The notes under the pieces are model-generated. The model was given only the letters and a program-made list of their open reading frames with translations. It searched no databases and had not been told where the DNA came from. From assembly GCF_014696435.1 (NCBI RefSeq), contig NZ_JACJQG010000039.1, positions 1-64,000 of the forward strand: a stretch of DNA of 64,000 nucleotides, given 5' to 3'. Positions 35,880-49,273 of the stretch are shown in pieces. Positions within the stretch are counted from its first letter, which is position 1. Each line of letters begins with the position of its first letter. The stretch is from Calothrix anomala FACHB-343 (lineage in GTDB: Bacteria > Cyanobacteriota > Cyanobacteriia > Cyanobacteriales > Nostocaceae). The position numbers and the translations under genes are program-made.

Positions 35880-36726
35880 GAATCATATTATAGTCAGAAT
35901 CATTTGCTGAAATAAATTTACCATCTTTATACTTTTGGTTCGCTTTAGCTGTTAAAAGGCTTTGGATTAGTTTATCTTGATGCTCAAACATACGCGCTCG
36001 TACATCTTCTACAAAGCTAGATGCCAGTAGGTTACTAGCAACAAATATATCATTTGGGAGTAATGGGCCTTTTAAGATGATAGAAAAATCCTTTTCCAAC
36101 AACCCTTCAGCTTCTAAGATATTATGGTATCGATCAAATGAGGTTGCCCAAGCATCCACCTCACCTTTTTTTAAAGCTTTTGCTCCTTGATCGTCCAACA
36201 TGATAATTTTTAAGTCAGTATTTGGATTCAACCCAGCATCTATTAGTAGTTTTGTAGGAGCAATATGGCCAGAGGTTGAGCCAATTTTTCGCATAGCAAT
36301 TGTTTTACCTCTCAATTGAGCTAATGATTTAATTTTGCTATCTGCACGAACGACAAAAATGGAATGATAGTTACTACGCCTGATAGCAATTATAGGGATA
36401 GCCTTAGCTCTAGAATTTAAAATTAAGTATTCTGAAGGGCCTGCAAATACAATGTCTACCTTTCCTGAAAGTAATGCAGGCGCTGCCGCCGTAGGATTTT
36501 CTACAGGAAAAAAATCAATTTTTATGCCTAATATTTCTTCTAGTACAGCCCGAAATGCTCCATAATCTTGTTGTAAATCTTCAATTCCAGCAACATCGGT
36601 AACTGTAAAATTTAATTTTTTAGGTGATGATATTGCCAATTTATCTGAGTTATTTTTTGGATTAGTACCTGTTGTACAGCCAGCAATAAATAATAGCGAA
36701 TACCAAAGTATATTTCGCCGTTTCAT
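35839..36726 (-). CDS. PhnD-like phosphate/phosphonate-type binding lipoprotein
   Basis: 295 residues. A signal peptide ends in lipobox IAGC with the Cys at residue 17, so the mature protein is a lipid-anchored periplasmic protein. TVTDVAGIEDLQQDYGAFRA, LLSGKVDIVFAGPSEYLIL, TIAMRKIGSTSGHIAPTKLL and VDAWATSFDRY match the PhnD/SBP_bac family that binds phosphonate, phosphite or related oxyanions. No permease or ATPase genes lie beside it; instead it overlaps a histidine kinase. It is therefore a candidate receptor subunit and not a transporter subunit. Confidence 0.88.
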   Translation of the reverse strand: MKRRNILWYSLLFIAGCTTGTNPKNNSDKLAISSPKKLNFTVTDVAGIEDLQQDYGAFRAVLEEILGIKIDFFPVENPTAAAPALLSGKVDIVFAGPSEYLILNSRAKAIPIIAIRRSNYHSIFVVRADSKIKSLAQLRGKTIAMRKIGSTSGHIAPTKLLIDAGLNPNTDLKIIMLDDQGAKALKKGEVDAWATSFDRYHNILEAEGLLEKDFSIILKGPLLPNDIFVASNLLASSFVEDVRARMFEHQDKLIQSLLTAKANQKYKDGKFISANDSDYNMIREVYQKIGQGSFL

Positions 36727-37436
36727 ATATTTTGAAAACTATTATAATGAAGGAAAATAATATCAAGCATTTCACTCGTTAAGTATATTGTTTTTTTATA
36801 GCTATAACTTCTGTAGATATACGCAAATTAATTATATTTTTGTAGAAATGTTCTAAATATAAAAAATGCTTTTATTATTCGGTTTATGTATTTATATAAC
36901 TTTGCAAGATTAAGGAAAGGTTATTCAGTGAATACTTAAATTTCCATAAATAAAAAAGTAAAAAACAGTAAAGCACCTGTTACTACTTAGCGAACGAGAA
37001 TAACTTCACACAACTAACCTTTGATAATGAATTAGAGACAAATATTATGTAAAATTGTGTCAACTGAGAAATATGTCTTACCTATCAACTTTTTTACTAA
37101 TTAAAGGTTAGGTTAAGGGATGACTTAGTTTAAATTTAGGTAATCAAGAGATTAAATTAGCTAAACATCAGTACTTTTCATCCAATTTTTAAGCTGGAAA
37201 TATAAAAATTTTAGAACATAAATATTTTATTATTGTTCAATAAAAAGCGACAACTAACGCTGCAATACTTGGCTTATACTCTAAAATCAACAGATAAGCT
37301 GTTCCACATAAAACTTGGATAATATTGTTGATTTTGTTGATTGTTGACTGTTAACGGTTAACAAATTATACAATTTATAATGCAAGGAATATGTGTTTTA
37401 GCTGATTAGTTAATGATGCTTCCAAGGAAAAATTAC
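36727..37436. promoter_or_regulatory. AT-rich region upstream of the peptide island
   Basis: About 700 bp without a gene. A short heptamer array (TTGACTG, TTAACGG; about 37343-37366) lies 70 bp before the first precursor. Promoters for both the minus-strand receptor gene and the plus-strand peptide genes must be here. Confidence 0.4.
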
Positions 37437-37679
37437 ATGGAAAAGCGAAAAAGCAATTACGACAGTCATTTAGAAATTAACAGCTTAATTGATGATGCTG
37501 TCAATAATGCGATCGCTCGCCGGAATCAAGAGTTAGATTCTGAAGATGCTTTGTTAGATGTATCTGATACAGAAGCTAGAAATATCGCAGGGGGTCTAGC
37601 ATCTGTGAAAACAACAGGTTTAATTTTTAAACCTCCTATTATTGTTGGCATCATCATTGCCCCAATTGAAACTATTTAG
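37437..37679 (+). CDS. Candidate RiPP precursor with double-glycine leader (not Nif11)
   Basis: From ATG 37437 (AAGGA at 37423-37427) the product has 80 residues; ATG 37413 would add eight. The N-terminal half is charged and helical (INSLIDDAVNNAIARRNQE), followed by the processing-like site ARNIAGG and a hydrophobic tail LASVKTTGLIFKPPIIVGII ending APIETI. That layout (acidic leader, GG, 25-30-residue core) is what C39 exporters cleave. I do not recognise the leader family. It starts the run of genes leading to the Nif11 precursors. Confidence 0.6.
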   Translation: MEKRKSNYDSHLEINSLIDDAVNNAIARRNQELDSEDALLDVSDTEARNIAGGLASVKTTGLIFKPPIIVGIIIAPIETI

Positions 37680-37710
37680 CCGTAAGATTCTCTTTGCCGA
37701 GGCTTAATGC

Positions 37711-38148
37711 ATGGAAAATATTGCTGCTGAAAAAACTACACTTTGCCCCAGTGCTAGACCTGAATCTGAGGATAGTGTAATTTTCGGCATCATCAGTGGA
37801 ACAGTGGCAGAACCCCGTGTGGCTTATTTAAAACAGCCACAAAAACTCACAAATGAACTGATAGCTAAAGCTAGCCCCATTACACCAGCTGAAATTTTTC
37901 GTACAGCTGCACCTTGTGCTACAAAAGGTTGTCAGCATTTTGATGGACAAGATTGTCGTTTAGCTACACGCATTGTCCAAAAATTACCTGCGATCGCCCA
38001 AGAATTACCCCCTTGTGCTATCCGCCGAGATTGTCGCTGGTGGAAGCAGGAAGGTAAAGCAGCTTGTATGCGTTGTCCTCAAGTAATTACAGATAACTAT
38101 AATCCCTCTGAGCTAGCAATTGAAGTAGCAACACCAACTGTTAGTTAA
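37711..38148 (+). CDS. Cysteine-rich protein of unknown function in the peptide cluster
   Basis: 145 residues, not recognised. It has eight cysteines, at about residues 12, 69, 74, 82, 102, 108, 119 and 122. Seven of them are packed in a region reading APCATKGCQHFDGQDCRL, then LPPCAIRRDCRWWKQEG and ACMRCPQV. The spacing suggests a metal site (zinc or iron-sulfur). No signal peptide is seen. Being 31 bp after a GG-type peptide gene and 88 bp before the first Nif11 precursor, it could be an electron donor, chaperone or modifying factor for one of these peptides. Confidence 0.6.
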   Translation: MENIAAEKTTLCPSARPESEDSVIFGIISGTVAEPRVAYLKQPQKLTNELIAKASPITPAEIFRTAAPCATKGCQHFDGQDCRLATRIVQKLPAIAQELPPCAIRRDCRWWKQEGKAACMRCPQVITDNYNPSELAIEVATPTVS

Positions 38149-38236
38149 GCAAATCTATAGGTATGAGTTTGACTTTTGCAACAAAAATGTCCTCATCCTC
38201 ATAGAAATAGTAATTCAGTGATTTTAGGAGCAGATT

Positions 38237-38557
38237 ATGTCATTAGAAAATGTTAGAGCTTTCTACGAAAGACTAGCATCTGATGAAGCTTTCCGTAGCC
38301 AAATTCAAGGTATTGACAGCAAAGAAGCAGGCAGAGAACTTTTGCAGAACTCCGGTCTTAATTTTAGCCAAGCAGAATTTGAAGAATATACAGAATATTT
38401 GTTAGAAACAAATGCGGCTACTGATGAAGATTTAAAAGACTTAGATGCCAACGAATTAGAAGCTGTATTTGGTGGAGCTATACCTGTGATTTTCCCTGGT
38501 ATACTGCCAATTTTGATGTATGGAGTTGTCATCAGCAGAATTGGGTTAACTTTCTAA
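38237..38557 (+). CDS. Nif11-leader precursor peptide 1 (MYG core)
   Basis: 106 residues. Leader SLENVRAFYERLASDEAFRS through LEAVFGG is the Nif11-like leader (TIGR03798 type) with a double-glycine cleavage site near residue 80. The core AIPVIFPGILPILMYGVVIS plus RIGLTF holds one Met-Tyr-Gly site, the kind of X-Y-G motif processed by spliceases. The ribosome site TTAGGAGCAG precedes the ATG. The upstream 60 bases and the leader are nearly identical to precursor 2, showing recent duplication. Confidence 0.88.
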   Translation: MSLENVRAFYERLASDEAFRSQIQGIDSKEAGRELLQNSGLNFSQAEFEEYTEYLLETNAATDEDLKDLDANELEAVFGGAIPVIFPGILPILMYGVVISRIGLTF

Positions 38558-38577
38558 TTTTTTATTAGGAGCAGATT

Positions 38578-38883
38578 ATGTCATTAGAAAACGTCAGAGC
38601 TTTCTACGAAAGGCTAGCATCTGATGACGCTTTCCGCGTGCTTCTTCAAAGCTTTGATACCCAAGATGCAGGTAGAGAAATTCTGCAAAATGCAGGTTTT
38701 AACTTCACCAAAGAAGAATTTGAAGAATATACTGCTCAATTATTAGATTCTGAGAATGAACTTCAAGATATAGATGCAGCAGAACTAGCATCTGTAGTTG
38801 GTGGATTAGTTGGATTTTATCCCAGACTTTACTTGATTTATGGAGCGCCAAGTCCTCTTTGGGATCACACAAACCTCTTCTAA
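38578..38883 (+). CDS. Nif11-leader precursor peptide 2 (IYG core)
   Basis: 101 residues. The leader is almost the same as precursor 1 up to ELASVVGG, then a different core LVGFYPRLYLIYGAPSPLWD plus HTNLF. One Ile-Tyr-Gly site is present. It is only 20 bp after precursor 1, with the same TTAGGAGCAG ribosome site. Conserved leader with hypervariable core is the hallmark of a RiPP family. Confidence 0.87.
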   Translation: MSLENVRAFYERLASDDAFRVLLQSFDTQDAGREILQNAGFNFTKEEFEEYTAQLLDSENELQDIDAAELASVVGGLVGFYPRLYLIYGAPSPLWDHTNLF

Positions 38884-38936
38884 TCAAGAGTTCAGTTATT
38901 ACACATTCGACTGAGACAATCACTTATAAATCTTGC

Positions 38937-38970
38937 TGACAGTCAACAGTCAACCGTCAACCGTCAACAA
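38937..38970. repeat. Heptamer array between precursors 2 and 3
   Basis: CAGTCAA and CCGTCAA units after an inverted TGACAGTCAA. It separates the closely spaced first pair from precursor 3. Confidence 0.85.
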
Positions 38971-38985
38971 TCCAGGAGTTATTTT

Positions 38986-39336
38986 ATGTCCTTAGAACAT
39001 GTAAAAGAATTTTACCAAAAGCTAGCAAATGATGAGGCTTTCCGTAATCAAATGCAAGCTGTTGAAACCAAGGATGAATGTAGCCAAGTTGTCAAAAGTG
39101 CTGGCTTGAATTTCACTCAAGAAGAATTTGAAGAATATACAACTCAATTACTAGAATCCAATGCTGACAGTGAACTCCAAGATTTAGGAGAAAAAGAACT
39201 AGAAGCAGTTTTTGGTGGCTTTTTAGGCAAGCCTATAATCCGCCCTCTATATGGAGTTGTTGTCTGGCCTCCTATTAAATGGCCCCCTATTTATCCTCAG
39301 CCCTTATATGGAGTTGTCATAAATGATGAAATTTAA
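38986..39336 (+). CDS. Nif11-leader precursor peptide 3 (two LYG sites)
   Basis: 116 residues. Leader SLEHVKEFYQKLANDEAFRN ends LEAVFGG. The core is the longest of the three: FLGKPIIRPLYGVVVWPPIK, then WPPIYPQPLYGVVINDEI. It is Pro- and Trp-rich, with the block PLYGVV present twice, 20 residues apart. Two processing sites in one core would give a peptide with two modified residues. The radical SAM gene follows 175 bp downstream. Confidence 0.88.
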   Translation: MSLEHVKEFYQKLANDEAFRNQMQAVETKDECSQVVKSAGLNFTQEEFEEYTTQLLESNADSELQDLGEKELEAVFGGFLGKPIIRPLYGVVVWPPIKWPPIYPQPLYGVVINDEI

Positions 39337-39376
39337 CAAGGCTAAATAAAAAGCTGATATTTACCGAAAAGAAAAA

Positions 39377-39469
39377 ATATAGCAATCCTAAATAATTTTT
39401 GAAATTTTGCCAGCTTTGACAGTCAACAGTTAACAGTCAACAATCACAACAAAAATAGGATTGCTATAT
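39377..39469. mobile_element. Small inverted-repeat element carrying heptamers
   Basis: ATATAGCAATCCTA (39377-39390) is perfectly inverted as TAGGATTGCTATAT (39456-39469). CAGTCAA/CAGTTAA units lie between. A single copy of the same end occurs near 26380-26395. Confidence 0.6.
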
Positions 39470-39511
39470 TTATTTCCCCTTTAGAGAAATTGATTGAGGG
39501 AGTTAACGCTA

Positions 39512-40768
39512 ATGACCTATCGCAGAATTAGTTATGCGGTTTGGGAAATCACTTTAAAATGTAATCTTGCTTGTCAGCACTGTGGTTCTCGCGCCGGTCA
39601 TACAAGAACTAAAGAACTATCCACCGCCGAAGCCCTAGATTTAGTCAAACAAATGGCGGAAGTTGGAATTACAGAAGTAACAATAATTGGTGGTGAGGCT
39701 TTTCTGCGTCCCGATTGGCTAGAGATAGCCCAAGCAATTACCAAAGCGGGAATGCTTTGTGGTATGACTACTGGGGGCTATGGTATCACTCTAGACACAG
39801 CCCACAAAATGAAGGAAGCTGGAATTAATGTAGTTTCTGTGTCTGTTGATGGCTTAGAAGCAACCCACGATCGCATTCGTGGTAAACAAGGTTCATGGCA
39901 ATGGGCATTTAAAACCATGAGCCATCTTAAACAAGCCGGAATTCCCTTTGGCTGCAATACCCAAATTAATCGCCTATCTGCACCAGAATTTCCCCTAATT
40001 TATGAGCATCTACGCGACGCGGGAATCTTTGCTTGGCAAATTCAATTGACTGTACCGATGGGGAATGCAGCCGATAATAGCGAGATTCTGCTGCAACCTT
40101 ATGAACTCCTAGATGTATACCCGATGATAGCGCGTGTTGCGCAACGAGCTAAACAAGAAGGCGTACACTTACAGCCAGGAAATAACATCGGCTACTACGG
40201 CCCTTATGAACGCTTTTTACGGGGTGGCGATGCTTGGTCTTTTTGGCAAGGTTGCAGTGCAGGATTGGCGGCTTTAGGAATTGAAGCTGATGGCGCGATT
40301 AAAGGTTGTCCTTCATTGCCAACTACAGCATACACCGGTGGAAATATCCGCGATCGCTCTTTGCGCAGTATCATCGAAGAAACCGAAGAACTGCGGTTTA
40401 ATCTCGGCGCTGGTACACCCAAAGGTACAGAACATTTGTGGGGTTTCTGCAAAACTTGCGAATTTGCAGAACTATGTCGAGGTGGTTGCAGTTGGACTGC
40501 ACATGTCTTTTTTGACAAACGAGGTAACAATCCCTACTGTCATCATCGCGCCCTGACTCAAGAAAAACAAGGCATCCGCGAACGAGTATTTTTGCAACGT
40601 CAAGCCAATGGCGAGCCTTTTGATAATGGGGAGTTTGCATTGATTGAGGAACCGATTAATGCACCTTGGCCAGAAAACGATCCCCTCCACTTTACTGCTG
40701 ACTGCATTCAATGGCCAGAAGGTTGGCAAGCAGAATTAGAACTCGTTCCATCTTTAGTAAAAATTTGA
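39512..40768 (+). CDS. plpX: Radical SAM/SPASM enzyme, splicease (PlpX)-like
   Basis: From ATG 39512 (GAGGGAG at 39496-39502) the protein has 418 residues. The radical SAM motif is CNLACQHC (CxxxCxxC) near residue 20, followed by GGEAFLRPDW and the beta-strand VVSVSVDGLEATHDRIRG. A C-terminal SPASM region supplies cysteines for auxiliary [4Fe-4S] clusters (GCSAGLAALGIEADGAIKGC ... GFCKTCEFAELCRGGCSW ... NPYCHH). In Pleurocapsa, PlpX with PlpY excises tyramine from X-Tyr-Gly of Nif11-type precursors, leaving an alpha-keto-beta-amino acid. Three Nif11 precursors with Tyr-Gly cores directly upstream and a small protein directly downstream give the same arrangement, so that reaction is inferred here. 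Confidence 0.8.
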   Translation: MTYRRISYAVWEITLKCNLACQHCGSRAGHTRTKELSTAEALDLVKQMAEVGITEVTIIGGEAFLRPDWLEIAQAITKAGMLCGMTTGGYGITLDTAHKMKEAGINVVSVSVDGLEATHDRIRGKQGSWQWAFKTMSHLKQAGIPFGCNTQINRLSAPEFPLIYEHLRDAGIFAWQIQLTVPMGNAADNSEILLQPYELLDVYPMIARVAQRAKQEGVHLQPGNNIGYYGPYERFLRGGDAWSFWQGCSAGLAALGIEADGAIKGCPSLPTTAYTGGNIRDRSLRSIIEETEELRFNLGAGTPKGTEHLWGFCKTCEFAELCRGGCSWTAHVFFDKRGNNPYCHHRALTQEKQGIRERVFLQRQANGEPFDNGEFALIEEPINAPWPENDPLHFTADCIQWPEGWQAELELVPSLVKI

Positions 40769-40782
40769 TTTATCAGCATAAT

Positions 40783-40974
40783 ATGCCCAGTGATTATATA
40801 CCTCCAGTAGAATCATCTATTAATCAATCTCCAATTGAGTTAGACTCTCAAGAACCGTTGTTACCTCGTTTAGCTTGGAATAGTCAAATAGCTTATTTGC
40901 GAGTAATCTTCAAAGCCAAAAAAGCTTTAGACCGTATTGAAAAAGAAGCAGGTTTTACGCCAATATCTAACTAA
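40783..40974 (+). CDS. plpY: Small accessory protein, PlpY-like
   Basis: ATG 40783 gives 63 residues, PPVESSINQSPIELDSQEPL followed by LPRLAWNSQIAYLRVIFKAK and ALDRIEKEAGF. It starts 14 bp after the radical SAM stop, so it is in the same operon. A small partner of this size and position is needed by PlpX for activity in the Pleurocapsa system. Orthology rests on position and size more than on a motif I can verify. Confidence 0.6.
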   Translation: MPSDYIPPVESSINQSPIELDSQEPLLPRLAWNSQIAYLRVIFKAKKALDRIEKEAGFTPISN

Positions 40975-41301
40975 TTTTTAAATGAATACTCTAAATTCAA
41001 TAAACATCAAAAATTAGTTAATTCCAGATAAAGGATGGGTTAACTTTTGATTTAAAAACTTGAGGGTATGTAGAGCGATCGCATACCCCACAAGCCTTGT
41101 AATGCAGTATTTTTAGCTAAGTTTATGTACTTTTAAATCTAAAAATAAAAACGAATTTTTTTGAATTTAAAAGTTTTATTGTTTGCTGCTTTATATAAGG
41201 TAAAATATATAAAGTTTTCTTGAAGTTTTCCCAAAGCCGTAAAAATACAGATGTTAATAATGGTAAGAATAATCATCAGGAATGATTACCTTATTTAAGC
41301 C
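40975..41301. other. AT-rich intergenic region
   Basis: No gene was recognised. A promoter for the PEP-CTERM gene is expected near its 3' end (AATAATCATCAGGAATGATTACC has small dyad symmetry, about 41269-41290). Confidence 0.35.
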
Positions 41302-41916
41302 ATGAAAGCTACAACTATAGGCTCGTTAATTTCAAGTACATTAGGTGGATTTTTGCTCTCATTATCCCCCGCTAGTGCTGTTACATTAGTCGAACCAATC
41401 GTGACAACACCTATCACCAATTTTCCTGATGGCATAAAAGTCACAGATGCGCTGAAACCAAGTGAATTAAGATTTTGGAACGCCCCTGACACTACTGGAG
41501 AACAAAATTTCGTTAATGATACAGGCTTTACTATCAATCAATTTTCTTTCTTAGTATTTCCTGATTTTGATACTCTGGCTGATGATGTAATCTGGGGAGA
41601 TGTAGATGGAGATGGTAAAGTTGGTTTCTCTAACATCTTTTCCAACATTACTATTTCTCCCGATTTTCTAGTTGAAAATTTCCGTGCGCCACGCTTGAAT
41701 ATGACCGGAGGATCAATTTTCAACGGGAATTCCTTTGCCGTTCAATTTATTACAAAACCAGATTTAAGACCAGCGCAACCAGGAGACAATGGGCCTTTGG
41801 TAATAGGTGGTGCTTACGACATTGCTAAACAAGTACCTGAACCATCAACTATTCTGAGTACAGCTTTAGTTTTTGGGCTAGGAAGCTGCTTAAGAAAGTA
41901 TAAATCAGCTAGATAA
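41302..41916 (+). CDS. PEP-CTERM sorted exported protein
   Basis: 204 residues with signal peptide (cleavage after SPASA, about residue 26) and a C-terminal sorting tag: PEPSTI, a hydrophobic helix LSTALVFGLGSCL and basic RKYKSAR. An acidic loop GDVDGDGKVGF resembles an EF-hand/dockerin calcium loop. Such proteins are exported and processed by exosortase-type systems in some cyanobacteria. The function is unknown. No exosortase is in the window. Confidence 0.85.
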   Translation: MKATTIGSLISSTLGGFLLSLSPASAVTLVEPIVTTPITNFPDGIKVTDALKPSELRFWNAPDTTGEQNFVNDTGFTINQFSFLVFPDFDTLADDVIWGDVDGDGKVGFSNIFSNITISPDFLVENFRAPRLNMTGGSIFNGNSFAVQFITKPDLRPAQPGDNGPLVIGGAYDIAKQVPEPSTILSTALVFGLGSCLRKYKSAR

Positions 41917-41947
41917 GTAGGTAATTAAAATTCACCACTCTCAAACA

Positions 41948-41985
41948 AAGTTCCGAATGAAGTTTTTCTTCCTTCGGGACTTTTT
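41948..41985 (+). terminator. Rho-independent terminator after PEP-CTERM gene
   Basis: AAGTTCCGAATGAAG (41948-41962) pairs with CTTCCTTCGGGACTT (41968-41982), with one mismatch, and is followed by T residues. Confidence 0.75.
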
Positions 41986-42082
41986 ACTAATTTAATGACG
42001 ATAACTTATAAATTAGTTATCAAAAATATCGATTCAGCAAATAACCTAATGTGTGCCTAAATTCTAGAACTACTAATAATAG

Positions 42083-42113
42083 CTGTCAACAGTCAACAGT
42101 CAACAGTCAACTG
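42083..42113. repeat. Heptamer array before the two-peptide units
   Basis: Four CAGTCAA-type units. Confidence 0.8.
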
Positions 42114-42222
42114 CAACTAAACAGCAGAATAGCTAATACATTAATAACTGTACCTATTTTGTTCAATCACATATCACTAAGATATTGACCAGATAAAACA
42201 GCTAAGAGAATAATACATACGG

Positions 42223-42285
42223 ATGAAAAAACTATCATCTTCGACCAAGAAATTAACGCAAGAAGGAGAAATTACAAATGGCTAA
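42223..42285 (+). other. Conserved 20-codon upstream ORF, copy 1
   Basis: MKKLSSSTKKLTQEGEITNG, stop TAA. It contains the AGAAGGAGA ribosome site of the next gene, and its stop overlaps that gene's start codon region (ATGGCTAA). A second copy with the same length and geometry lies at 43057-43119. It could be a translational-coupling leader or coincidence of duplication. Confidence 0.35.
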
Positions 42286-42433
42286 CATCACAATTCAAAA
42301 CCTAGATGCTCAGAATCTGGCAATTGTTGAATTGGATAACAATCAACTTAACGAAGTTAAGGGCGGTTGTCCTATCTGTATTCCTGTATTATTTGGTATT
42401 GGTCTAGCTGCTGGCTATCTTCTCAACAGATAA
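42278..42433 (+). CDS. Double-glycine peptide A1 (bacteriocin-like)
   Basis: 51 residues: leader ANITIQNLDAQNLAIVELDN and NQLNEVKGG, then core CPICIPVLFGIGLAAGYLLN plus R. The LNEVKGG ending is a classic GG-type processing site read by C39 peptidases. The core is short, hydrophobic, glycine-containing and starts CPIC, allowing a disulfide or thiol modification. An AGAAGGAGA ribosome site is 6-10 bases upstream. Peptide B1 follows 43 bp later. A nearly identical copy is at 43112-43264. Confidence 0.8.
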   Translation: MANITIQNLDAQNLAIVELDNNQLNEVKGGCPICIPVLFGIGLAAGYLLNR

Positions 42434-42476
42434 TTCTGAACTTATCTACTACCATTTTTGAATTGTAGGACTTACC

Positions 42477-42635
42477 ATGACAGTAATTACCATTAACGAC
42501 ATCAACCGTAGCAATTATCTGGTTGATTTAACAGATAACGAGACTGATGCAACCCGTGGTGGCTTTATACAATTTGTTGCTGCTTTTTGGCTGGGTTATA
42601 AAATAGGCAAAGAAATTGCCCGATTAACTGAGTAA
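42477..42635 (+). CDS. Double-glycine peptide B1 (bacteriocin-like)
   Basis: 52 residues: leader TVITINDINRSNYLVDLTDN and ETDATRGG, then core FIQFVAAFWLGYKIGKEIAR plus LTE. The core is an amphipathic helix with a WLGYxIG motif. Leader and core are unrelated to peptide A, as in two-component bacteriocins where both peptides act together. The TGTAGGACTTACC ribosome site is conserved in copies B2 and B3. Confidence 0.8.
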   Translation: MTVITINDINRSNYLVDLTDNETDATRGGFIQFVAAFWLGYKIGKEIARLTE

Positions 42636-42720
42636 TATTAAATTAAATACAGACATAGTAAAGTTGCCAGTATTACTAAGCTTTTTTGCTTTTAGGTCTA
42701 CTTTCATTGTCTAAATTAAT

Positions 42721-42752
42721 AAAACCCTCTGAAAATTTTCGAGGGTTTTTTC
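42721..42752 (+). terminator. Terminator after the first peptide unit
   Basis: AAAACCCTC (42721-42729) is inverted as GAGGGTTTT (42741-42749), followed by T residues. It separates unit 1 from unit 2. Confidence 0.8.
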
Positions 42753-43056
42753 ATGAAGAATTAAGTTTGTTTTAATATGAAAAGCTGCGAAACAATGATT
42801 ATGCAGTATTGTAGATAAGTTGAAAGCGGAATATACAAAATTAGGGCTTATGCCACTGGTGCATATCATCTAGTCGGCAAAGGAAGGCTTTATAATTAGA
42901 GCCAGTGGCTTGCAGAAAAAAGGCTTAATGTGCAGCCTCACAGAGAATTAGTATCAGCCATAAAAACATTAAATTAATAACTGTACCTATTTTGTTCCAT
43001 GATGTATTACCTAAAATATTGACCAGATAAAACAACTAAGAGAATAATACATACGG
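42753..43056. other. Intergenic region upstream of the second peptide unit
   Basis: No gene. The last 95 bases repeat the region before unit 1 (TAATAACTGTACCTATTTTG near 42143 and 42975), so each unit carries its own copied promoter segment. GTGCAGCCTCACAGAG near 42930 resembles the right end of the element at 43841-44026. Confidence 0.5.
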
Positions 43057-43119
43057 ATGAACAAAATATCATCTTCGACAAAGAATTTAACCCAAGAAGG
43101 AGAAATTACAAATGGCTAA
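43057..43119 (+). other. Conserved 20-codon upstream ORF, copy 2
   Basis: MNKISSSTKNLTQEGEITNG, stop TAA, with the same overlap with the next ATG as copy 1. Several codons differ from copy 1 while the frame and length are kept. Confidence 0.35.
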
Positions 43120-43264
43120 TATCACAATTCAAAACCTAGATGCTCAGAACCTATCAATTGTTGAATTGGATAACAATCAACTGAACGAAGTTAAGGGCGG
43201 TTGTCCTATCTGTATTCCTCTATTATTTGGTATTGGTCTAGCTGCTGGTTATCTTCTTAACTGA
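43112..43264 (+). CDS. Double-glycine peptide A2
   Basis: 50 residues, differing from A1 only at a few positions (LSIVEL in the leader, CIPLLFG in the core, no final Arg). The leader again ends LNEVKGG. Same ribosome site and spacing. Confidence 0.8.
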   Translation: MANITIQNLDAQNLSIVELDNNQLNEVKGGCPICIPLLFGIGLAAGYLLN

Positions 43265-43310
43265 TAATTCTGAACTGATCTACTACCATTTTTGAATTGT
43301 AGGACTTACC

Positions 43311-43475
43311 ATGACAGTAATTACCATTAACGATATCAACCGTGCCAATTATCTGGTTGATTTAACAGATAACGAAACTGATGCAACTCGTGGGGGTTTT
43401 ATACAATTTGTTGCAGCTGTTTGGCTGGGTTATGAAATAGGCAGAGAAATTGCAATTCTGACTAAAAGAAGATAG
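43311..43475 (+). CDS. Double-glycine peptide B2
   Basis: 54 residues. Leader as B1 (INRANYLVDLTDNETDATRGG-type), core FIQFVAAVWLGYEIGREIAI plus LTKRR. Charge differs from B1 at the C-terminus (KRR), and E replaces K after WLGY. Confidence 0.8.
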   Translation: MTVITINDINRANYLVDLTDNETDATRGGFIQFVAAVWLGYEIGREIAILTKRR

Positions 43476-43490
43476 TGCTGTCTGGCAATA

Positions 43491-43601
43491 ATTTTTGAAT
43501 TAAATAACAATCAACTAGAGGAATTTAAGGGTATTTATTCAATCTGTATTCCTCTATTATTTGCCGTTGGTCTAGTTGCTTGCTATTTTCTTAAGCAATA
43601 A
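43491..43601 (+). pseudogene. Decayed peptide A3
   Basis: The frame reads ELNNNQLEEFKGIYSICIPL, then LFAVGLVACYFLKQ and a stop. It aligns with the last part of A1/A2 but lacks the start and first 15 residues, and the processing site GG is changed to GI. It occupies the position expected for an A gene before B3. Confidence 0.75.
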
Positions 43602-43643
43602 TTCTGAACTTATCTATTACCATTTTTGAATGGAGGATTTACC

Positions 43644-43805
43644 ATGACATTAATTACCATTAGCGATATCAACCGTGCTAACTATCTGGTTGATTTAACA
43701 GATAACGAAACTGATGCAACTCGTGGTGGTTTCATCCAAGCAATTGCAGCGCTTTGGCTTGGTTATGAAATAGGTAAAGAAATTGCAACACTGCTCAAAA
43801 GATAG
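43644..43805 (+). CDS. Double-glycine peptide B3
   Basis: 53 residues. Leader TLITISDINRANYLVDLTDN and ETDATRGG, then core FIQAIAALWLGYEIGKEIAT plus LLKR. More diverged in the core than B1/B2 while the leader is kept. Its partner A3 is decayed, so it may pair with A1 or A2. Confidence 0.8.
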   Translation: MTLITISDINRANYLVDLTDNETDATRGGFIQAIAALWLGYEIGKEIATLLKR

Positions 43806-43840
43806 TAGTCTGAAATTACAATTAAGCAGTTTTCGCTTTT

Positions 43841-44026
43841 ATACCAATTTAATATGAAGTTGCATATATCTAGATTCCCCTAAATCCCCCTTAAAAAGGG
43901 GAGGCAGTGCGTTGGGCGGGTTTCCCGACTTGAAGCAACTGCCGTGGACTTTGATTCTTTTTCCCCCTTTTTTAAGGGGGGCTAGGGGGGATCGAATTCT
44001 ATGCAGCCTCATAAAAAATTGGTATT
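43841..44026. mobile_element. 186-bp MITE-like element
   Basis: ATACCAATTTAATATGAAGT at the left is imperfectly inverted as CATAAAAAATTGGTAT at the right (about 44010-44025), each with a TGCA block inside. The interior holds CCCCCTTAAAAAGGGG and CCCCTTTTTTAAGGGG hairpins. Confidence 0.65.
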
Positions 44027-44050
44027 AGCTCAACATTCATTATCTGATAA

Positions 44051-44077
44051 AAAACCTCTGAAGATTTCAGAGGTTTT
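44051..44077. terminator. Bidirectional terminator between peptide B3 and the isomerase gene
   Basis: AAAACCTCTGAA (44051-44062) is perfectly inverted at 44066-44077 with a 3-nt loop; A- and T-rich flanks suit both convergent transcripts. Confidence 0.8.
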
Positions 44078-44084
44078 CTATAAT

Positions 44085-44822
44085 TTAGTCTAATATTAGT
44101 TCAATTTCAAATTGGTCAATTTGTTTCTTGAGCCATTCTGCAAACAACTCTGTAATAATCTTGTAACGCAACTTATCATCTAAAATTGGTTGAATAATTT
44201 CTTCTACAAGAATTAAGTGGTATCCCTGAGAATTGACAATTGGCTTGAGGATTTGTGGTGGATTAGCAGCAAAAACAGCAGCAGAAATTTCCGGTTTCAT
44301 GTCCTTCCGTCTGACTATTCCTTGATATCCGCCAGAGCGTTTTAATTCAACATCTTGGATATATTTGTGAGCTACATCATGGAAGCTAATTTCATCTTCT
44401 TTAATGGCGTAAAAAAGTTCCAGTGCTAAATCTTCACTATCCAAGATGACTTGGTACATAACTGCGGCAGAATAATCTAATTGATGTTCAAAAAAGTAAG
44501 GCTCCACTTGCTCGCTAAATAAATGAGCAGCTAACTTTCCAGAAATGAGGCTGCTGTAAACTATGTTTTCAAAATCTTCTAAAGATAAACTATGTTTTTC
44601 TAACCACTTCCATGTATCATCAGCGCTATCAAGGTTATTAACTAAACGTATTTGATCTGCTGCGTGCTGAAGTTCTTTTGGTTCAATTGTAATACCAGCT
44701 TCTACTGCGCTAGATATAATTACTTTCCGACTAATAATTTGCTCAATTACTTCAGGAATCTTGCATGATAACTTAATTTCACGCAGAATATCTTCCTTGA
44801 TAATGGTGATATTTTGTGACAT
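44085..44822 (-). CDS. Parvulin-type peptidyl-prolyl isomerase of the export cluster
   Basis: 245 residues. The C-terminal half holds a PpiC rotamase domain (MYQVILDSEDLALELFYAIK ... KRSGGYQGIV ... NSQGYHLILVEEI); the N-terminal half is a helical SurA/PpiC-type chaperone part. No signal peptide was recognised, so it probably acts in the cytoplasm or at the inner face of the exporter. It is the last gene of an operon with HlyD and the C39 ABC exporter, where it may keep the precursor in an exportable shape. Confidence 0.85.
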   Translation of the reverse strand: MSQNITIIKEDILREIKLSCKIPEVIEQIISRKVIISSAVEAGITIEPKELQHAADQIRLVNNLDSADDTWKWLEKHSLSLEDFENIVYSSLISGKLAAHLFSEQVEPYFFEHQLDYSAAVMYQVILDSEDLALELFYAIKEDEISFHDVAHKYIQDVELKRSGGYQGIVRRKDMKPEISAAVFAANPPQILKPIVNSQGYHLILVEEIIQPILDDKLRYKIITELFAEWLKKQIDQFEIELILD

Positions 44823-44886: not shown

Positions 44887-46410
44887 CTATAGTTTTAAGC
44901 CACCTTGTTGCAATTTTTTAAACGGATCGAGTAGAAAATCACTAATCCGGCGTTGGCGGACAATAACTTCGGCTGTTGCTGTATCTCCTGGATTTAAGGG
45001 AATACATTTATTACCAGAAGAAATACAATTTTGTTTTAAACTAATTTCTAAGTTATAGGCTGCAACTTTACCATTAGGTGTATCCACCTCTGTAGTAGTA
45101 GGCGAAATTTTAATTAATTCCCCCGATACAACACCATAATCCTGAAATGGGTAAGCATCAAATTTTAATTTAACTGGCAATCCTTTTTGTAAAAAACCAC
45201 TTTCGGTAGTTGCCATTTGTGCCCGGATAATTAAAGGTGAATCTAAAGGTGCAATTTCTGCCATCATTGTTCCTGATTGCACTACAGAGCCAGCTTTTTG
45301 AATTGGCAACTGAAACAGTTTACCATTCACAGTTGCTTTAATTTCTCGTTGTCCTAATTGAAATTTTAATGATGTAATCTGACTTTTGGTTTGAGCAATT
45401 TCTGCTTGGAGAGAAGCAATTTCTGTATCTAAGTTCTTTTGCTGTTCTGTAATTTTTAACACAGCTAACTTACCGGAACGCATTAAGGTTTGATAACCTC
45501 TTTCTTGTTCTTTGAGTCGCAATTCTGCTTGTTCAATATCTGCACTAATTTGGCGAATATTGCGCTCATAGCTACTCTGCTGTTCTGTTAAACGTAACTT
45601 AGCTTGTGCGATATCTGATTTACTTTGTTCGTATAATTTTTGCTTGTCTTTTGCTAAATCTTGCTTTTCTACAAGGTTAATTTCGGGAATAATTCCTTGT
45701 TGTTTTAGCTTGTTATAACGTTCCACCTCTCGCTGAGTACTAGATAAAGTACTCTCCATCAAATTACTTACAATTCGGCTGTGTTCAAGAGTTTGTCGCG
45801 CTTGATTAACTTGAGCTAATCTCTCGTCTTTCTGTAATGTATAGGCATTTTTTAATGTAAGAATATTTTGTCTTGCTTGGTCAACTTGAGCTTGTTTTTC
45901 TAACTGTTGCGATTGGTTTTGTTGTTGTTGAGTTGTTAAAGATACAATTAACTGATGTTTAGCAGAATTTAACTGCGAAAGTCGATTTAATTGTCCTTCT
46001 AATTTATCTTGAACCTGGCGTAGTTCAGCTTTAACTAATTCTGATTCTAATAATAATAAAGTTTGTCCAGATTTAACTAATTCACCCTCTTTAACTCGAA
46101 TTTCGGCAACAGTTCCAGCCACAGGAGCATCGAGTTTAATTGTCTGATCTTGAGGCTCAATACGCCCTCTAGCTGTGCCAGTTTCATCAACTTTAGATAA
46201 TACTGCCCAAGGTAAAATTATTGAGACAAAAATGACTAAAAAATATAACAATCCTCTTGTCCAAACTTGGGGAAGGCTTTCGAGAGATTCTTTTGTAATT
46301 TCAGCCCAGTCATCTCTTTTGATTACTGGAGATGGTGTTACTAAAGTTTCTGTATGGGGTTTATCTGTTATTATGGAATTTTTGACCCTACCATTTAATA
46401 CATCTGTCAT
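44887..46410 (-). CDS. HlyD-family membrane fusion protein
   Basis: 507 residues. One membrane helix at about 53-75 (GLLYFLVIFVSIILPWAVL), then barrel-sandwich strands with GRIEPQDQTIKLDAPVAGTV and GELVKSGQTLLLLES, a long coiled coil rich in Gln (about 120-340) and the second half of the barrel. It links the inner-membrane ABC exporter to an outer-membrane channel of TolC type, which is not in the window. Its stop-to-start distance to the isomerase is 64 bp, and the exporter is 112 bp upstream in the same direction. Confidence 0.92.
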   Translation of the reverse strand: MTDVLNGRVKNSIITDKPHTETLVTPSPVIKRDDWAEITKESLESLPQVWTRGLLYFLVIFVSIILPWAVLSKVDETGTARGRIEPQDQTIKLDAPVAGTVAEIRVKEGELVKSGQTLLLLESELVKAELRQVQDKLEGQLNRLSQLNSAKHQLIVSLTTQQQQNQSQQLEKQAQVDQARQNILTLKNAYTLQKDERLAQVNQARQTLEHSRIVSNLMESTLSSTQREVERYNKLKQQGIIPEINLVEKQDLAKDKQKLYEQSKSDIAQAKLRLTEQQSSYERNIRQISADIEQAELRLKEQERGYQTLMRSGKLAVLKITEQQKNLDTEIASLQAEIAQTKSQITSLKFQLGQREIKATVNGKLFQLPIQKAGSVVQSGTMMAEIAPLDSPLIIRAQMATTESGFLQKGLPVKLKFDAYPFQDYGVVSGELIKISPTTTEVDTPNGKVAAYNLEISLKQNCISSGNKCIPLNPGDTATAEVIVRQRRISDFLLDPFKKLQQGGLKL

Positions 46411-46522: not shown

Positions 46523-49273
46523 CTAGTTTAATCCTTGAAATTGCTGTTGATTGAGGTAAAAATAATGCCCGCGTTTCACCATTAATTCTGCATGGGTTCC
46601 ACTCTCGATCAATACGCCTTTGTCTAGTACCAAAATCATATCGGCATTTTGTACAGTAGAGAGTCGATGAGCAATCACTAAGGTAGTTCTTCCCTTAAGA
46701 ATAGTGTTTAAGTTTTGCTGAATAATTTTTTCTGACTCTGTGTCTAAGTGGGAAGTAGCCTCATCTAAAATAAGCAAGCGAGGATTACCTAATAAGGCTC
46801 TAGCTATAGCTATGCGCTGTCGTTGTCCGCCAGATAATAACCCACCACCTTCACCAATTTGGGTTTCATATCCCATTGGTAATTTTTTAATAAACTCATC
46901 AGCACCCGCTAATTTTGCTGCTTCGATCACTTCGCTTAAAGGTGCGCCGGGATGTCCTAAGCTAATATTTTCGCGAATGGTTCCACCAAATAAAAATGTA
47001 TCTTGGTCAACTACGCCTACTTCTTGGCGTAAGGAACGCAGGGAAATACTAGTAATATCTTGTCCATCAATGAAGACTTTGCCATCTGTAGGGGGATATA
47101 AGCCTAAAACTAGCTTAGAAATAGTAGTTTTTCCAGAGCCGCTACGCCCTACCAGTGCTACCATTTGTCCAGTTTTGATTTCAAAAGTGAGATTTTCTAA
47201 GATATTAATATCACTTTCTGGGTGATAGCGGAATGTAACATTTTCAAAGCGAATATTGCCTTGAATATATGGTAAATTCTGTCGTGCTTGGTGTTGTAAA
47301 TCTTCCTCTGGTTCTGTATCCAGAACATCATTAATCCGTTCTACAGCAATCACTACTTCTTGCAATTGATTCCACAAGACAATTAAGCGTTGGAAAGGGG
47401 TAATAATATTGCCTAAAAGCATATTAAAAGCTACCAACTGCCCAATAGTTAGCTGGTTTTCAATTACCAAATGTGCCCCAAACCATAGCAAGGCGGTTGT
47501 AACTATTGCTTCAATGGCATTGCTGAAAATTTGCAGGCGATTACTGATAACTTGTCCAGAAAAGTTAGTTTTTATTTCTTTATTTAATAACTCTTCCCAA
47601 TGCCAACGAACTGTATGCTCTACTGCTGTAGCTTTCACAGTTCTAACACCAGTTAGAGCTTCGATTAAGTAACTGCTTTCATTGGCTACAGCATTAAAGA
47701 TTTCGCGGGAAATTCTTTGTAAAAAAGGCGTGGCAATTAATGCTAATAAAGCAAACGGCGGTACAATTACCAACACTAGCAACGCCATTTTCCAACTGTA
47801 CCAAAACATTAATCCTACATAGATAAATACTGTGAGTAAATCTAGGAGGATAGATAATGCTTCACCGGAAAGGAAGCGTTGAATTTTACGGTTTTCTTGA
47901 ACGCGCGAGATTATATCCCCTACATAACGGGACTCAAAAAAACTCAAGGGTAAACGTAAGGTATGGCGGATAAAACCAACGATTAGTGCCAAGTCTATAC
48001 GATTGGCTGTGTGGTCTAGCAGATATTGCCGCAAACCTGTCATTGCTACTCGAAACAGGCTAAAAATCAGCAATCCGATACCAACAGCAGTTAAGGTGAG
48101 TTGCGATCGCTGTACAACTACTCGGTCTAAAATTAACTGGGTAAATAGGGGTGTAATCAGCCCAAATATCTGGATAAATACCGAAGCAATCAATACTTCC
48201 AGCATTACCAAACCGTGAGGCTTGAGTAACTCAAAGAATTGCCAAAAGGGGGTAGAGGTTTCTTTGGCATCTTTAAGCATAGCTGTAGGTTGCAGCAGCA
48301 ATGTATAACCAGTCCAGCCTGCTTGGAACTCTGCATGAGTGAGGGTGCGTTGTCCAATACCAGGGTCGGCAACTATGACATGTTTCTGGGTAATTTCGTA
48401 GACTACAATGTAATGTTTGCCTTCCCAATGGACAATTGCAGGTAATTTTTGCTTGGCTAACTGATTCAGACTCGCCTTGACAGGTCTGGTTGCAAAACCT
48501 AAACTTTCCGCCGTCGTTAACAAACCCCGCAATGATGCGCCATTACGGTCTACATTGGCGATATCCCGCAACCGATTGACGCTAAAGCGTTTACCCCAAT
48601 AGCGAGACACCATCACTAAACAAGCTGCACCGCAGTCTGATGCACTTTGCTGGGCAAAAAATGGATAGCGGCGAGTCACTCTTTGCCATAAATGCCCAAC
48701 TTGCTGAGTAGGTTTGGGAAAATAGGCTTTACTAATCTTTTTTTGTGGTGGTTCTGGAGTAGAGATTGCAGAAATAGCTGTTTGATGATTTGGAGTTGAT
48801 GGGTAGGCGTAGCCAGTCGTGGACATCGCAGTTACAGGTGAGTTATCTGTGTCTTCTTGAAGAGAATTGCGAGATAACGCTGTTTGCCACAAATGCTGCC
48901 TAATTTCAGGATAATTAGCCATCAATGGTTGCAACAACTCACCAGGAATAAAGCACAACTGCAAATTTATCGAAGCCCTAGCAGCATAAGGTTTTAACTC
49001 AGCCTCCGGAAACAAAGTAAATTCCCCAAATGAATTTCCGGACTCCAAAGTGGTGATTAACTCACCTACATTGTCAAGCAACCTCACCTTACCGGCAATC
49101 ACAATATAGATACCTGGTTCAGCGTCAGTTCCTTGCCAAAACTTACCAACTTTGGGGTTGAGAAATTTAACTTGTTGCAAACATTGTTGAAATTCTGTCT
49201 CGGAAAGTGAGTACCCCAAAATATTGCTGAATTGTTCCAGAGACACTAACAGATCTGATAGATTTTGCACCAT
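46523..49273 (-). CDS. C39-peptidase ABC exporter with N-terminal cyclic-nucleotide-binding-like domain
   Basis: 916 residues. Residues 1-130 form a cNMP-binding-like domain (GIYIVIAGKVRLLD, LESGNSFGEFTLFPE). Residues about 205-330 are a C39 peptidase with catalytic Cys in QQSASDCGAACLVMV, His in WEGKHYIVVYE and Asp in VADPGIG. Six membrane helices follow, then the ATPase with GRSGSGKTT, LLSGGQRQRIAIARALLG and LLILDEATSHLD. Such transporters cut leaders after Gly-Gly and export the core. It can serve the A/B peptides and possibly the Nif11 precursors nearby. The first 36 codons overlap the 3' end of the upstream HTH gene. Confidence 0.93.
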   Translation of the reverse strand: MVQNLSDLLVSLEQFSNILGYSLSETEFQQCLQQVKFLNPKVGKFWQGTDAEPGIYIVIAGKVRLLDNVGELITTLESGNSFGEFTLFPEAELKPYAARASINLQLCFIPGELLQPLMANYPEIRQHLWQTALSRNSLQEDTDNSPVTAMSTTGYAYPSTPNHQTAISAISTPEPPQKKISKAYFPKPTQQVGHLWQRVTRRYPFFAQQSASDCGAACLVMVSRYWGKRFSVNRLRDIANVDRNGASLRGLLTTAESLGFATRPVKASLNQLAKQKLPAIVHWEGKHYIVVYEITQKHVIVADPGIGQRTLTHAEFQAGWTGYTLLLQPTAMLKDAKETSTPFWQFFELLKPHGLVMLEVLIASVFIQIFGLITPLFTQLILDRVVVQRSQLTLTAVGIGLLIFSLFRVAMTGLRQYLLDHTANRIDLALIVGFIRHTLRLPLSFFESRYVGDIISRVQENRKIQRFLSGEALSILLDLLTVFIYVGLMFWYSWKMALLVLVIVPPFALLALIATPFLQRISREIFNAVANESSYLIEALTGVRTVKATAVEHTVRWHWEELLNKEIKTNFSGQVISNRLQIFSNAIEAIVTTALLWFGAHLVIENQLTIGQLVAFNMLLGNIITPFQRLIVLWNQLQEVVIAVERINDVLDTEPEEDLQHQARQNLPYIQGNIRFENVTFRYHPESDINILENLTFEIKTGQMVALVGRSGSGKTTISKLVLGLYPPTDGKVFIDGQDITSISLRSLRQEVGVVDQDTFLFGGTIRENISLGHPGAPLSEVIEAAKLAGADEFIKKLPMGYETQIGEGGGLLSGGQRQRIAIARALLGNPRLLILDEATSHLDTESEKIIQQNLNTILKGRTTLVIAHRLSTVQNADMILVLDKGVLIESGTHAELMVKRGHYFYLNQQQFQGLN

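Follow-up and report, generated by a model that had tools for sequence, protein, structure and literature searches.

The closest described relative of the locus analysed here is the plp cluster of Pleurocapsa sp. PCC 7319, in which the enzyme pair PlpXY has MYG and LYG as its natural sites (PMC10533398). Spliceotides, the class of ribosomally synthesized and post-translationally modified peptide (RiPP) concerned, have been called broadly distributed (PMC10373908) and their products have been described as protease inhibitors (PMC11117315; PMC10373908). A spliceotide rule was introduced in antiSMASH 6 (PMC8262755), and spliceotide annotations have been reported or used elsewhere (PMC11837572; PMC11264947). 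We analysed a stretch of 64,000 nucleotides from Calothrix anomala FACHB-343 (contig NZ_JACJQG010000039.1, positions 1 to 64,000; hereafter the window), in which three Nif11 precursor genes, a radical S-adenosylmethionine (SAM)/SPASM gene and a 63-codon gene lie at 38237-40974, all on the (+) strand. This locus is very probably a spliceotide cluster of the family already described, because its enzyme is a member of TIGR04103 and 77% identical to PlpX, because a relative of the partner protein is found in every related locus, and because Tyr-Gly in the precursor cores tracks the enzyme. The best prediction from these sequence data is that tyramine would be excised at four Tyr-Gly sites. No account of the locus was found in the literature searched, which included neither the main survey (Scott et al. 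2022, Chem) nor the 2018 plp paper.

When the open reading frames (ORFs) were re-read from the sequence, all five were intact and the gene set and outer coordinates given in the original prediction proved to be correct. The precursors are encoded at 38237..38557 (precursor 1, 106 residues), 38578..38883 (precursor 2, 101 residues) and 38986..39336 (precursor 3, 116 residues), each (+), with leaders of 80, 76 and 78 residues, respectively, that all end in GG. That these are Nif11 leaders of one kind, as had been proposed, is borne out by profile scores for precursors 1-3 of 44.7, 46.7 and 56.8 bits with Pfam Nif11 (PF07862; cut-off 23.8) and of 42.2, 49.6 and 53.8 bits with TIGR03798 (cut-off 32.3). 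The cores are AIPVIFPGILPILMYGVVISRIGLTF in precursor 1, LVGFYPRLYLIYGAPSPLWDHTNLF in precursor 2 and FLGKPIIRPLYGVVVWPPIKWPPIYPQPLYGVVINDEI in precursor 3; they are mutually unrelated apart from their Tyr-Gly sites, again as claimed. Precursor 1 has a single MYG (38516-38524, +) and precursor 2 a single IYG (38836-38844, +), whilst the 38-residue, Pro/Trp-rich core of precursor 3 has two LYG sites (39247-39255 and 39304-39312, +). None of the three cores contains a cysteine, which argues against thioether chemistry.

The enzyme gene (39512..40768, +) encodes a 418-residue radical SAM/SPASM protein from an ATG start; a TTG start also exists at 39494. One check suggested with the original prediction was whether the enzyme falls into another SPASM family. 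It does not: it scores 846 bits against NCBIfam TIGR04103 (cut-off 725), the same equivalog as PlpX, and is below the cut-off for the other families. The next-best family, the TIGR03913 GDL maturases, gave 420.3 bits (cut-off 591.75). Sactipeptide/ranthipeptide maturases scored far lower (StsB, 88.8 against a cut-off of 625; PapB, 56.1 against 340), and their assignment was also rejected on the cysteine-free cores; an epimerase reading was rejected on the profile cut-offs. A TIGR04103 search of the host's own genome returned one match above the cut-off and three weak ones.

The sequence of PlpX was found by a TIGR04103 search of 27 genomes from the family of a Hyella genome. One locus there (L149, genome G550) carries PIRPLYGLPI, identical to the published PlpA2 tag, and AVAAMYGVVFP, which differs from the published PlpA3 tag in having Met where core position 5 of the tag was engineered to Gly (PMC10533398). 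Also encoded there are a PoyD-type epimerase and an NHLP precursor, which agrees with the description of plp (PMC11002830). Because the core tags and the gene content match, although no record name stands behind the assignment, we take L149 as the plp locus of Pleurocapsa sp. PCC 7319 and its TIGR04103 gene as PlpX. This PlpX scores 824 bits against TIGR04103 and shares 310 of 405 aligned residues (77%) with the window enzyme. The CxxxCxxC cysteines (C17, C21, C24) and seven SPASM cysteines (C248, C266, C313, C316, C322, C326, C343) are invariant over 13 sequences including the window enzyme, and are kept in PlpX. In a tree of 86 enzymes, which holds 77 of the 79 related loci named below (the other two had no ORF passing the filter) and which carries a long-branch warning for L050-L053, a long branch divides 84 rows, PlpX and the window enzyme among them, from 2 outgroup rows. 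The window enzyme is inside a 63-row clade (support 96/99), with the 98% identical enzyme of Tolypothrix sp. FACHB-123 as its sister.

To judge the Tyr-Gly (YG) sites we used 79 related loci, taken from the best 80 of 302 confirmed stretches in a scan of named genomes, with flanks of at most 8 kb and often shorter. A leader profile identified 127 Nif11 ORFs in these loci, 124 of them with a GG- or GA-delimited core and 119 of those cores distinct. YG was present in 116 of the 119 distinct cores beside the enzyme, at 199 sites (500 within-core shuffles: mean 23.3, maximum 36), and one core counted without it, from L115, reflects a parsing error and holds VYG. Cores with two sites were the commonest (59), followed by those with one (46), three (9), none (3) and four (2); two or more sites were found in 70. 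Over the 199 sites the X residue was Leu in 92, Met in 54 and Ile in 17 and, counting from the Tyr, Pro occupied -2 at 129 sites and Val occupied +2 at 136. The window sites are in this family-typical context, except for the IYG-AP of precursor 2. By locus, the profile found at least one YG precursor in 73 of the 79 (range 0 to 7). Of the six without one, L115 and L107 proved on inspection to hold YG, and the contigs of L113 and L116 begin only 360 and 154 bases before the enzyme.

As the main control, we used genomes of the same family that lack the enzyme, comprising 30 loci and 20 further stretches, the latter picked mostly for longer open frames from a match list spanning 75 genomes. YG was found in the core of none of 24 GG-type Nif11 ORFs, which may serve other enzymes (e.g. 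lanthionine synthetases) and two of which have identical cores (L253), and after the leader in none of 37 other Nif11 ORFs. An earlier and weaker control of 34 loci (4 of them in the host's own genome and the other 30 in enzyme-free genomes, with two loci giving no ORF) had YG after residue 55 in 2 of 32 Nif11 ORFs, one of these two being a 506-residue fusion (L004); only one of the 32 was of the GG type. YG in the core thus tracks the enzyme. Hyella patelloides (L105:4884-7952) has seven successive single-YG precursors ahead of its splicease.

The 63-residue protein expected downstream of the enzyme is present (40783..40974, +). This form begins 14 bp past the enzyme stop; a longer frame of 87 residues starts at an in-frame ATG within the enzyme gene. 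All 79 related loci have a relative of this protein downstream of the enzyme; in 74 it is an ORF whose ATG start lies -4 to 430 bp past the enzyme stop. The partner has a variable N-terminus, a conserved LPRxxW and one long helix, and in an alignment of 35 sequences L27, P28, R29, W32, K46 and L49 are invariant. A search of L149 alone gave a match to the 56-residue ORF directly after PlpX (30% identity over 53 residues, E 1.5e-5), which from its position we infer to be PlpY. PlpY has been labelled as a RiPP recognition element (RRE), in truncated form (PMC11002830). An AlphaFold2 model of the partner has helices at 29-33 and 35-56 and no strand, with a mean predicted local distance difference test (pLDDT) score of 71.7 and a predicted template modelling (pTM) score of 0.42, and a Foldseek search of this model against the PDB gave no matches. 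A winged-helix RRE fold is not seen in this moderately confident model, but strands could also be missing from a truncated RRE, so the label may or may not hold for the partner. Taken together, the TIGR04103 score, the identity to PlpX and this relative in the PlpY position support the splicease-type locus that had been proposed.

From the gene content, family membership and site conservation observed here, we infer a pathway as follows. The ribosome would make three precursors with a common Nif11 leader, from which the enzyme pair would remove tyramine at the X-Tyr-Gly sites, cutting and resealing the backbone so as to leave a ketoamide at X. A C39-peptidase ATP-binding cassette (ABC) exporter, for which the one found 6 to 9 kb away is a candidate, would then cut after GG and secrete the core; the released peptide may inhibit proteases as a ketoamide. 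The mass loss for C8H9NO is given as 135.0757 Da in PMC10533398; the formula computes to 135.0684.

Several observations weigh against a simple splicease operon of this kind. In the tree, PlpX pairs with one other row outside the 63-row clade of the window enzyme. The IYG-AP context of precursor 2 is rare, with Ile as the X residue in 17 and Ala after YG in 14 of the 199 sites, and because it is a minority context this site may splice poorly. Two of the 79 loci, L097 and L102, each with 8 kb of upstream sequence, show no YG precursor. Finally, that all five genes form one operon, as proposed, is no more than plausible: they share a strand, with gaps of 20, 102, 175 and 14 bp, but the 175-bp gap, with its 7-bp repeats, separates precursor 3 from the enzyme gene. 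These tandem repeats (ACAGTCA/GTCAACA) are at 38939-38969 and 39419-39446, in two of the gaps, and also at 42085-42111, beyond the operon. Purine-rich sequences resembling ribosome-binding sites were seen by eye before the gene starts. An Rfam scan of 36500-44500 gave no matches, and promoter-like (17 against a mean of 14.3 in shuffles) and terminator-like (4 against 2.9) counts were at the shuffle level.

We also weighed other accounts of the same genes. It is unlikely that the splicease leaves some of the sites unused, such as one LYG of precursor 3 and the IYG of precursor 2. The scarcity of Ile at X and of Ala after YG would fit this, as would the evidence that context matters, only two of the tested FtsZ tag variants having been spliced (PMC10533398), but several events per precursor have been reported (PMC10373908). 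Cores with two sites are, moreover, the commonest kind (59/119), which also speaks against partial use. SPASM enzymes are chemically diverse, and on that ground the enzyme might perform another radical SAM/SPASM reaction (epimerisation, thioether formation or a C-C crosslink) with YG as no more than a recognition element; we consider this very improbable given the equivalog match to the family that holds PlpX, the 77% identity to PlpX itself and the lack of cysteine in all three cores. It is scarcely credible that the locus is silent or in decay and yields no product: repeats do lie in two intergenic gaps and precursor content does differ between close relatives, but the five ORFs are intact, ribosome-binding-like sequences precede their starts, and the FACHB-123 enzyme matches the present one with 98% identity from end to end.

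Downstream of the five genes, on the (-) strand, are a PpiC/SurA-type rotamase (44085..44822; PF00639), an HlyD-family adaptor (44887..46410; PF13437) and a C39-peptidase ABC exporter (46523..49273; PF03412, PF00664, PF00005), with relatives in at least 49, 35 and 25 of the 79 loci, respectively, counts that are lower bounds given the short flanks. Presumably these three genes belong to the cluster. The exporter is a possible leader peptidase and exporter for the GG leaders, and C39 exporters (peptidase-containing ATP-binding transporters, PCATs) are used for spliceotides (PMC10885120). The cassette fits GG leader removal in a way that is not specific to these precursors, and it may act on the other GG peptides encoded nearby. 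At 42278-43805 (+), between the cassette and the operon, two short GG-leader peptides (51 and 52 residues) recur in an array of almost identical copies with a repeat unit of 333 bp. The two array peptides tested had no NCBIfam match, and one had a sub-threshold match to Pfam Bacteriocin_IIc (E 0.037).

Upstream of the precursors are two neighbours that may or may not belong to the cluster: u88 (37413..37679, +), an 88-residue GG-leader peptide with a PPIIVGIIIAP core motif, and u145 (37711..38148, +), a 145-residue protein with eight invariant cysteines. Neither has a Pfam match at E 0.1. With NCBIfam, u145 had no match and u88 only pMurE, far below the cut-off. Against PHROGs, u145 gave one weak match (E 0.0028), and its structure model is poor (pLDDT 43.9). 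Of the 79 splicease loci, 37 have relatives of u88 and 39 have relatives of u145, in most cases immediately 5' of the Nif11 genes, and a u88-type peptide is at most 1.5 kb from u145 in all 30 of the best u145 loci, the window included. Across 193 genomes, u145 is present in 57 of 77 with the splicease and in 19 of 116 without it (Fisher p 5e-16, uncorrected for kinship); this count omits nine weaker u145 rows (E 6e-29 to 1.5e-6) and so covers 76 u145 genomes rather than 82. Among the 19 u145 genomes lacking an intact splicease, G184 and G190 carry a splicease fragment within ~1.2 kb of u145. Among 84 splicease and 80 u145 genes, 45 pairs of the two lie no more than 6 kb apart.

None of 64 u88-type cores contains YG. 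The motif [ITVL][ITVLMAC]Gx[IVF], which was defined after looking at the cores, is present in 56 of the 64 (shuffles: mean 8.6, maximum 15). As a lead, u88/u145 would be a secreted-peptide system in its own right, frequently accompanying the splicease operon. A more ambitious and rather doubtful joint reading is of a composite locus with a second precursor system, comprising the hypervariable u88 core that repeats I-x-G-[LI]-I together with u145, where the motif glycine marks a backbone or side-chain modification by u145, the splicease pair or both. The u88/u145 pair is the part of the locus that could lead to something undescribed.

The locus itself is not exceptional. TIGR04103 is above the cut-off in 77 of 193 genomes sampled from the host's family, its own genome included, and in 21 of 386 sampled from the phylum. 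Given this frequency, the 70 of 119 cores with several sites, the existing antiSMASH rule and the occurrence of an identical core 2 in FACHB-123, it is one of many members of a described family. If precursor 3 is doubly edited, its product would have a new sequence and be of a known type. What the locus offers is four candidate ketoamide sites, all genetically encoded and spread over three cores, and an enzyme pair which, with an enzyme 77% identical to PlpX, could be tried as an alternative splicease.

Among more distant relatives, the window enzyme has 46.6-47.7% identity to proteins annotated as TIGR03913 GDL maturases on three Azospirillum plasmids. A Nostoc plasmid enzyme annotated as a nif11-class maturase 3 is 74.8% identical to it. 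The plasmid records of Nostoc and the three Azospirillum relatives are NZ_CP040288.1, NC_013857.1, NZ_CP054616.1 and NC_016623.1. Much closer is the locus of Tolypothrix sp. FACHB-123 (L062), where the enzyme and the 63-residue protein are each 98% identical to those of the window, the same upstream pair is present, and core 2 matches throughout and core 3 at all but one residue. The leader profile found no precursor 1 there. In its precursor 2 gene (L062:5072-5377), the opening 90 bases are nearer to window precursor 1 and the last ~180 nearer to window precursor 2. Because this gene looks like a hybrid of the two, it suggests that precursors may be gained and lost through recombination within their similar leaders.

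The comparison with plp (L149) shows both likeness and difference. A search of the host's own genome for a PoyD-type epimerase, such as plp has, gave no match, but none of the 14 control genomes gave one either, so an epimerase may still be present. Both loci have Nif11 leaders with GG, MYG and LYG sites and a small LPRxxW protein directly downstream of the enzyme. The PlpA3 core of L149 shares MYGVV with window precursor 1, and its PlpA2 core shares the RPLYG context with window precursor 3. Unlike plp, the window has three Nif11 precursors, one of which carries two sites in a single core.

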